Shown here one piece after another: positions 20,133 to 22,034 of a stretch of 22,763 nt of DNA. Below the pieces are notes generated by a model. That model saw only the letters and a program-made list of their open reading frames with translations, was not told the origin of the DNA and searched no databases. The position numbers and the translations under genes were made by a program. The stretch's first letter is position 1. Each line of letters starts with the position of its first letter. The DNA lies in the IMG/VR virus record IMGVR_UViG_3300037488_000274, positions 1 through 22,763 of that record; one strand, written 5' to 3'. The DNA is from a virus.

Positions 20133-22034
20133 TCAACCTCTCCCAATAATGTTCATTAGCTCATCGAGCGTAGTGGCAGATGAGTCCCCTGCCGTAAGTT
20201 TCTGTATCAGTTCGTCCGCACTATTTTCGTCGGGTTTGGGGGTATCCGCAAGCTGCTCAGCAAACTGCCACGGCTCCGCTCCTGCAGCGGTAACGCTTAG
20301 ACCCCGGTAGTCCTCATCGACTAAATCGCCCCGCTCCCCCAATTTCTGCTTCTTGGAACCAAACTCTTTGCCGTAATAGAACATATTGGCGAGGAGCGGG
20401 AACCCTAACGCTGCGGCGGTCTGCGCCTGCACTTGGGGTGTCGGTGTGGGCGTTGGTTTAGGCGTTGGTTTAGGCGTTGGTTTAGGCGTTGGTTTAGGCG
20501 TTGGTTTAGGCGTTGGTGTCGGTGTCGGTGTCGGTGTCGGTGTCGGTGTCGGTGTCGGTGTCGGTGTGGGCGTTGTTGTAGCGGTCAGCCCCAAGTCCTC
20601 GTTAGCCTGCTGGCTATCTTTCGCGGCGTTAAACACAAACGGGGCCAAGTCCTCGTTAGCCTGCTGGCTATCTTTCGCGGCGTTAAACACAAACGGGGGT
20701 GTAGCAGTCAGCCCCAAGTCCTCGTTAGCCTGCTGGCTATCTTTCGCGGCGTTAAACACAAACGGGGGTGTAGTCGTGTCGTAACTAGAGGTATCTGCAG
20801 GGGTCAGACCCAAGTCTCTGGTAGCTTGATCGCTGTCTGCACGGGGGTTAAACACAAACTGGGTTGCAGAGGTATCTGTACGGGCGTCTCGAGCGGCGTC
20901 GCGCAGAACGTTTCGAGCCGCATCAGTACCCGCGGTAACCGCCGCGTTTATTATGGACTGGTCTAACGGCTTCCCTACTAAGGTATTCGCTATTACTGAG
21001 GTAGCCGCTTTTTTCGCAAAATCGGGGAGGTCCTTAAACCCCGGAATTAGGTTAGTAATATCAGGCATTGCCGCTGAAATCCCGCCCGTGACAAGTGCTT
21101 GGAGCGCCCCCTCTACTCCGCCGCCAGTCGCAATAGAGCCCGCCACGCGGCCTGCAATATTCGCCCCGGTTTGCCCGAGGGCATCAACTACGGGACTAAA
21201 GCCCGAGATGCCAGAAGCAACTTGCCCGCCAACCCATGAAAGCGCCGCGGCTTTCAACACATCTTCAATATCTCGACCCGCGGCAAGATTGAGCGCTGCA
21301 ACCCCAAGAGGCCCGCCGAAAGTTGAAGCGCCTGCTTGAATTATGTGCCCAAGCACAGGGACTTGCAGGAGTTTAGCTAGGTCATTACTAGTGCCCCCGT
21401 ATTGCGTATAGAAAACGGGCGTGCCATCAGGCTTAAATTGAACGTTATATTCAGTAGAGCCCTCTCCCGCATAAGTCCCGCCCCAAATACTGTCTTTGTA
21501 GCCGAGTTTATGGTAACCCCCTGTATTGTCGGGTCCGTATATGGGGTCCCCAGTCGCCTTGTTGTAGTATTCCTTTACTGTGGTAGCGGGAGCCATATAG
21601 CTGGATGGGACGTCTCCTTCCCCCGTCGTATAAGAAACCTCGTGCTCCGGAATAACTTTGTCCCGAACGCCAAAGTCTTTAATGTCTGTAAGGCCTGCCT
21701 GTGCCAAAATCCGCGCCATATCTCTAGAGGTGCCGTACGCACTCCCCAAGGCCTCGCCGCCCCATTTTGAGGAGGTTCCCTGAGCCAAAATCTGTTCAGC
21801 TAAGTTTTCCCGTGTTGGGTCCTTCAGTACAAGCGCCCCGGAAGGGTCGTAATCCGACTGTACGTATTCACCCGTTGCCGTGTTGTAGTACTCCTGTACG
21901 GTTTTCTCTGGGACTGTGACCAACTCGTCCCAAGCGCCCTCCCCCCCGCCCGTTGTTTGGTAAGTTTGGTGGCTTGGGATAACTCTGTCTCGGGTCCCAA
22001 GGCGGGAGAAATACGTATCTTCAGGTATAGGCAT
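20133..22034 (-). CDS. Modular, repeat-rich virion protein (putative tail/adhesin-like)
   Basis: 633 residues. The N-terminal region holds two diverged copies of a ~45-residue unit (13-57 and 122-165): RD-R/K-VIP-x-H...TTG-x-GE...TV-x-EYYN-x-ATG. A Gly/Ala/Val-rich hydrophobic stretch (about 235-350) could cross or coat a membrane. Then come four FVFN-type modules (about 388-481): one FVFNPRADSDQATRDLGLTP and three FVFNAAKDSQQANEDL. A Thr-Pro / Lys-Pro stalk follows (about 490-535). The C-terminal ~95 residues are acidic and end NIIGRG. No known enzyme motif is seen. A tail or surface fibre-like role is inferred from the stalk and the repeats. The Shine-Dalgarno AAAGG overlaps the TAA of the upstream gene. 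TGA (20135-20133) precedes the next ATG by one base. Confidence 0.83.
   Translation of the reverse strand: MPIPEDTYFSRLGTRDRVIPSHQTYQTTGGGEGAWDELVTVPEKTVQEYYNTATGEYVQSDYDPSGALVLKDPTRENLAEQILAQGTSSKWGGEALGSAYGTSRDMARILAQAGLTDIKDFGVRDKVIPEHEVSYTTGEGDVPSSYMAPATTVKEYYNKATGDPIYGPDNTGGYHKLGYKDSIWGGTYAGEGSTEYNVQFKPDGTPVFYTQYGGTSNDLAKLLQVPVLGHIIQAGASTFGGPLGVAALNLAAGRDIEDVLKAAALSWVGGQVASGISGFSPVVDALGQTGANIAGRVAGSIATGGGVEGALQALVTGGISAAMPDITNLIPGFKDLPDFAKKAATSVIANTLVGKPLDQSIINAAVTAGTDAARNVLRDAARDARTDTSATQFVFNPRADSDQATRDLGLTPADTSSYDTTTPPFVFNAAKDSQQANEDLGLTATPPFVFNAAKDSQQANEDLAPFVFNAAKDSQQANEDLGLTATTTPTPTPTPTPTPTPTPTPTPTPKPTPKPTPKPTPKPTPKPTPTPTPQVQAQTAAALGFPLLANMFYYGKEFGSKKQKLGERGDLVDEDYRGLSVTAAGAEPWQFAEQLADTPKPDENSADELIQKLTAGDSSATTLDELMNIIGRG
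20449..20508. repeat. Minisatellite, 12-bp unit x 5
   Basis: Five perfect copies of GGCGTTGGTTTA (+ strand) encode a (Lys-Pro-Thr-Pro) run on the - strand in the 633-aa protein. The array directly adjoins the GGTGTC array at 20515-20562. Confidence 0.96.
20515..20562. repeat. Microsatellite, GGTGTC x 8
   Basis: Eight perfect copies of GGTGTC encode Thr-Pro as ACA CCG on the - strand. The 15-copy array at 19503 uses ACG CCA for the same dipeptide. The different codon pairs show that the two Thr-Pro stalks expanded from different seeds. Confidence 0.96.
20591..20767. repeat. Three identical 54-bp repeats
   Basis: Copies lie at 20591-20644, 20645-20698 and 20714-20767. The first two are directly abutting and the third is separated by 15 bases. 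Each encodes the 18-residue module FVFNAAKDSQQANEDL plus flanking residues on the - strand. Identity is complete by eye, so the expansion is recent or kept uniform by recombination. Confidence 0.95.
20781..20871. repeat. ~91-bp direct repeat, copy B
   Basis: Partner of 19919-20009, lying in the 633-aa gene just before the 54-bp repeats in the coding direction. It encodes the FVFNPRADSDQATRDLGLTPADTSSY module, which is itself a diverged relative of the 54-bp-encoded module. Confidence 0.93.

Follow-up and report, generated by a model that had tools for sequence, protein, structure and literature searches.

Variable-length repeat stalks are already known. The Periscope proteins (SasG, Rib, Sgo_0707 and others) are bacterial surface proteins projecting a functional tip, and their stalk repeats are described as near-identical folded domains, the number of which varies between similar strains via intragenic recombination between near-identical DNA (PMC8201768). 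In crAss-like and related gut phages, tandem repeats of the BACON domain occur in a tail-associated protein; one lineage is reported to have gained them by duplication, two others by horizontal transfer (PMC6949934).

The stalk presented here, encoded by a gene that we call P1, is a variant of these, and its function is one that we infer. Like the Periscope proteins, P1 bears tandem repeats that are near-identical at the DNA level (three exact 54-bp copies), and their number differs between close relatives (two to four A modules in five phages, with indels of repeat units in a wider family). In contrast to the folded Periscope domains, its units are short and the module blocks were modelled with a pLDDT of ~29-52; P1 is encoded next to virion and tail genes of a phage instead of being a bacterial surface protein, and its motif also occurs in the adjacent gene, P2. 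As in the BACON arrays, tandem units are found in a phage protein, with a tail association that is putative for P1. However, the P1 units are 18 residues long whereas BACON is a known domain, and no BACON Pfam match was found in P1, P2 or the scanned relatives.

The window, meaning the whole stretch of DNA analysed, is an entire IMG/VR virus record of 22,763 bases. On its minus strand it holds, as transcribed, the end of a gene matching a tail fibre PHROG, followed by P1, P2, P3, P4 and P5. The features are listed below.

22047-22763, minus strand: gene end with a tail fibre match in the PHROG search, adjoining P1
20133-22034, minus strand: P1, 633 aa, with an N-terminal part, an Ala/Gly-rich region, the module array, the TP/KP stalk and a conserved C-terminal segment
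20811-20858, minus strand: B module of P1, FVFNPRADSDQATRDL, the diverged fourth module of the original prediction
20714-20767 (core 20715-20762), minus strand: A module, copy 1 in protein order, then a GLTAT linker; exact 54-bp unit
20645-20698 (core 20646-20693), minus strand: A module, copy 2 in protein order, no linker after it; exact 54-bp unit
20591-20644 (core 20592-20639), minus strand: A module, copy 3 in protein order, then GLTAT and the TP stalk; exact 54-bp unit
20449-20567, minus strand: TP/KP stalk of P1, 12-bp units repeated 5.8 times and 6-bp units repeated 8.8 times (arrays 20449-20517 and 20515-20567)
20136-20450, minus strand: conserved C-terminal segment of P1, FYYGKEFGSKKQKL..LSVT.AGAE..DELMNII
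19202-20131, minus strand: P2, 309 aa (ATG at 20131; TTG at 20146 possible too), with a conserved C-terminal part and a variable middle with TP repeats
20078-20125, minus strand: P2 motif DNEAVNESYWNTFLGG, first copy
20015-20062, minus strand: P2 motif DNEAVNEAYWNTFLGG, second copy
19949-19996, minus strand: B module of P2, identical to the P1 copy over 51 bp
19503-19592, minus strand: TP stalk of P2, 15 units of 6 bp
18296-19192, minus strand: P3, 298 aa
16391-18292, minus strand: P4
10755-16382, minus strand: P5, 1875 aa, LPD38

The module array of P1 and its extension into P2

As the original prediction had it, the same 54-mer is found exactly at 20591, 20645 and 20714; with uniform base composition, about 1e-24 exact repeat pairs of this length would be expected by chance in 22.8 kb. 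The copies at 20591 and 20645 abut, while the copy at 20714 comes after 15 bp (a period of 69), so that the three repeats are not a simple head-to-tail triple. Read from the minus strand, the A module is [PA]PFVFNAAKDSQQANEDL, 16 residues within an 18-codon period, and the array in protein order consists of B, A with GLTAT, A without a linker, A with GLTAT and then the TP/KP stalk. The diverged module placed next to the repeats was located at 20811-20858.

The flanking junctions of the three A copies all differ from one another. Repeat arrays are often mis-assembled and a copy number of three might be an error of this kind, but the differing junctions allow the three copies to be told apart, and the linker-less junction occurs in separate contigs as well; we therefore consider an assembly artefact highly unlikely.

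P2 bears a second short array, two copies of DNEAVNE.YWNTFLGG, which together with the TP/KP arrays completes the cassette. Moreover, a module crosses the boundary between the two genes, since B recurs in P2 as a fifth module that the original prediction had missed. The DNA shared by P1 and P2 is exact over 51 bp in the window and over 37 bp in the relative L014, where P2 and P3 also share 32 bp.

Copy number, junctions and age of the array

In protein scans of IMG/VR, P1 was found at six loci and P2 at seven. The whole P1 array is present in five phages including the window, and the contig of the sixth phage (L010/L012) holds only the end of P1 together with a P2 that has one B module. P1 harbors three A modules in the window, two in each of L011, L006 and L014 and four in L018 (metagenome assemblies), in agreement with the dense variable cassette originally described, and one B module in the window and in each of the four array-bearing relatives. 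Concerning P2, DNEAVNE.YWNTFLGG occurs twice in the window, once in L011, four times in L006 and three times in both L014 and L018. The B module of P2 is single in the window, double in L011 and missing from L006, L014 and L018, and a hybrid module (A') is found in L014 and L018 only among the five phages. A search for the module at other copy numbers had been proposed with the original prediction, and a pattern search of viral contigs returned two to four A copies, within the same phage group only. A match in L019 lay outside the reading frame of another protein and was dropped as a chance hit, and a plasmid search with the array gave no match.

The 48-bp A core is identical in every copy of the five phages, except that a single L018 copy has one synonymous substitution. 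The window, L006, L014 (with an A-to-V change) and L018 have the linker-less junction NEDL[AV]PFVFN in common, and in this five-phage comparison it is absent from L011. Two linker variants stand in exchanged order in L011 relative to the window, and the 5' flank of the first A copy is ACACCC in the window and ACAACC in the other four phages. The exchanged order and the divergent flank are compatible with recombination inside the array, which they may reflect.

The loss of synonymous differences between the copies had been read as a recent tandem duplication or gene conversion. Tandem duplication and changes of copy number hold, but the identical DNA dates nothing to the window phage. Because the A core and the linker-less junction are common to relatives, the tandem arrangement either arose before the window phage did or has spread among these phages by transfer, and the identity of the A copies hardly argues for a very recent event in the window phage. 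On both sides of the array, P1 of the four relatives has diverged from that of the window, at a pS of 0.03-0.23. Per phage pair, B, the first A and the last A together show 0 to 3 synonymous differences at ~40 sites, and the near flanks 0.05 to 0.15 per site. In all 10 phage pairs the pS of these modules was below that of the near flanks, but p<0.05 was reached in just one of the 10 (Fisher test), and for this reason gene conversion is not claimed as proven, nor is concerted evolution, despite the consistent direction. Homogenisation, or shared recent ancestry of the stretch, would explain why synonymous differences between copies are missing.

The wider family and its stalk

A scan with the P2 alignment resulted in 64 loci, or 48 once identical open frames were removed and with truncated copies counted apart. 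A long open frame ends at the P2 start in 44 of these 48 loci (42 distinct), and the P1 C-terminal segment was matched at E<=1e-3 by all 42 distinct upstream genes, which include the close relatives of the window and some near-identical phages. The low-entropy stretch before this segment ranges from 0 to 540 aa and reaches at least 100 aa in 33 of 43 rows (near-identical and truncated contigs included); by the same measure, which leaves the A modules out, it is 30 aa in the window. The repeat units that relatives carry at the stalk position are unrelated (such as DTKA, VSPS, NVNP and STPT), and across this wide family, as the original prediction had missed, the stalk is hypervariable.

The same or nearly the same P2 was shared within 10 groups of loci, and P1 was comparable in eight of them, being identical in four and differing by repeat indels in the other four, although two of the latter (L082/L083 and L084/L085) are just ~95-98% identical. 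Over 8,606 aligned bases L033 and L034 are free of mismatches, and their sole difference is one in-frame 42-bp gap in P1, corresponding to one unit of the 14-aa tandem repeat DAKTKADADAQAVT, which lies upstream of the measured low-entropy stretch but inside the repeat-rich portion of P1. Of eight contigs, two have the short form of this indel and six the long form. Similarly, L052 and L089 show 0 mismatches over 4,371 bases with gaps in the P1 stalk that total 72 bp, and L042 differs from L091 by 1 mismatch over 3,846 bases and a single 24-bp stalk gap. P2 can change as well: between L042 and L052 its middle is replaced over ~480 columns (L042 ~4204-4690, alignment columns; 79 mismatches and 189 gap columns), whereas the remaining ~8 kb contain 1 mismatch and one internal 6-bp gap. 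The L042 form of the replaced segment is also found in L072, and the L052 form in L091. The three repeats appear to represent one state of a stalk that changes fast, and the modules shared by adjacent genes, the indel pair identical over 8.6 kb and the replaced P2 segment are more striking than the repeats originally noted.

The array could be a neutral spacer, i.e., filler whose length drifts by repeat slippage or recombination and whose motifs have no function. The unrelated units at the same stalk position and the spread of the low-entropy stretch, down to none at all, imply that no particular sequence is required there. On the other hand, the motifs recur in a second protein, P2, and among the five closest phages the compared segments (B of P1, first A, last A with its linker) carry no amino-acid change (pooled pN 0.000), but these phages are close and the segments short. 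Taken together, we regard a functionless filler as somewhat unlikely.

A genome scan for P2 gave 19 stretches matching the pattern, from which three distant relatives were confirmed, all in metagenome-assembled genomes. A metagenome-assembled alphaproteobacterial contig (L094, 100-5070) has a 1656-aa gene with a TP-type stalk directly before P2- and P3-like genes; the P1 N-part profile did not match this gene.

Putative virion setting and the possible role of P1

P1 matches Pfam in low-complexity stretches only, and PHROG in such stretches and through a weak match to phrog_10824; its family is without a Pfam or PHROG name. The phrog_10824 match (function unknown in PHROG, E-value = 0.027) lies over the third A module, at window positions 20589-20648 (P1 residues 462-481). 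Against 50,697 phage records, P1 matched one metagenomic phage; the match was made by the N-terminal part of P1 and fell in a gene flanked by head-to-tail connecting and scaffolding genes. The P1 C-terminal segment of L045 matched none of the same records. Searches of solved structures gave nothing significant for the P1 C-terminal segment, P2 or P3. With tape-measure profiles, P2 gave only weak PHROG matches (E-values 0.009-0.018), and among nine records that have a P2-like tail end, two bear a tape measure annotation. A literature search on the P1/P2 gene pair found no paper among the matches listed.

The structure prediction that had been suggested for the four modules gave a low-confidence model with one 11-residue helix in each, preceded by a strand in two of the four. 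Mean pLDDT was 47 for the N-terminal part with the modules and 58 for the C-terminal segment, the second model thus being of low confidence as well. A fold search with the former returned one match at E<=0.001 (TM 0.13), which was not used given the low-confidence model. P1 showed no transmembrane-like segment, its highest 19-residue hydropathy being 1.13.

In L006, the genes that lie upstream of P1 gave hits to PHROG families for virion structure and tail, and for one of them a chain of PDB 9nwi ('Capsid and scaffold protein') was matched. The closest matches of the window DNA polymerase come from Rhizobium and Pseudomonas phages of 60-64 kb, among them the podovirus KPP25, and the window phage is probably tailed and podovirus-like. 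In Planktothrix phage Pag-Yong1 (OL906435) and near-identical records, P2-, P3- and P4-like genes follow in the same order as in the window, after a 'needle head protein' gene, and the C-terminal part of P2 is 53.7% identical. The sole gene between needle head and P2 in Pag-Yong1 (336 aa) contains no P1 C-terminal segment, and this phage may lack P1. P22-type phages encode ejection proteins at a comparable gene position. The position of its gene suggests that P1 is a virion protein, with ejection or tail association as the likeliest option.

A few P2 relatives carry secreted or surface-type domains, namely RTX repeats in two of 43 and a GDSL lipase in one of 43 (best E-value = 5e-17). Such domains would suit modules that contact the host in an adhesin-like manner, their number being under diversifying selection. 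However, P1 and P2 are located where ejected internal proteins are expected, by P22-type gene order and the synteny with Pag-Yong1, and the compared modules are invariant in sequence, making host contact quite unlikely in our view. Assigned by eye from the sequences, the GDSL lipase belongs to the P2 of L081 (2141-4249) and the RTX repeats to those of L051 and L061. Other Pfam matches were few and were not built upon, i.e., DUF2240 (2/43) and Nudc_N (1/43) in P2 relatives, and PARP (3/32), DUF3243 (2/32) and COMM_HN (1/32) in P1 relatives.

The reading that we prefer, to which we would give about an even chance, is that the three repeats belong to a stalk or tether of variable length, probably disordered, which carries short motifs in P1 as a putative virion or ejection protein. 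The stalk would join the N-terminal part and the Ala/Gly-rich region to the conserved C-terminal segment, each 18-codon module probably supplying one short helical motif borne on a flexible linker. Slippage, or unequal recombination of near-identical repeats, would add or remove entire units in frame, and motifs would be copied between P1 and the adjacent P2. A changed length or motif number could then tune reach or avidity rather than be merely tolerated. If this is true, an uncultured phage group alters a pair of particle genes mainly via in-frame repeat gain and loss and segment swaps, not point changes; the repeat count would offer a countable marker for strain tracking, and the effect of the stalk length of a particle protein on infection would become testable. 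Going further, P1 and P2 might be specialised as a pair for diversifying length and motifs in phage particles, with recombining repeats altering the stalk length faster than point mutation, entire segments swapped among phages that are identical elsewhere and exchangeable short motifs traded by the two genes in pursuit of a changing host envelope, as a phage counterpart of the length variation of bacterial surface proteins. We hold this extension to be unlikely.

Further modules recur in these genes. P3 of L006 (13773-14822) and of L014 (11316-12371) contains a ~58-aa module, QGISPEMALYxYAQ...GVDTLMGF, which is repeated in P2 of the same phages and does not occur in P3 of the window. A helix-turn-helix-like module of 53 aa, SDxxIxxYLxRPGxxDxxIARxMNxYGISPxxxA, is shared by P1 of L017, L057, L066 and L076 and many P2 proteins, and is also present in a protein of MW202710 (3849-5375) coded between portal-side and scaffold genes. 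The A and B modules were rejected as forms of this 53-aa module by profile, with insignificant overlaps for B (E-values 8 to 410; 49 for the window P1) and none for A. Likewise, when B was compared with the N-terminus of distant P2 proteins (FFADPRNDAFAYNDLG...), 10 and 9 of 2000 shuffles reached the score, and because these sequences were picked by eye the homology is weak only; in the comparison of B with MW202710, 156 of 2000 shuffles reached it. Finally, a weak SprT-like region of P5 overlaps a virion RNA polymerase PHROG match, and the P5 relatives in L006 and L014 bear PEAEVA-type repeats.
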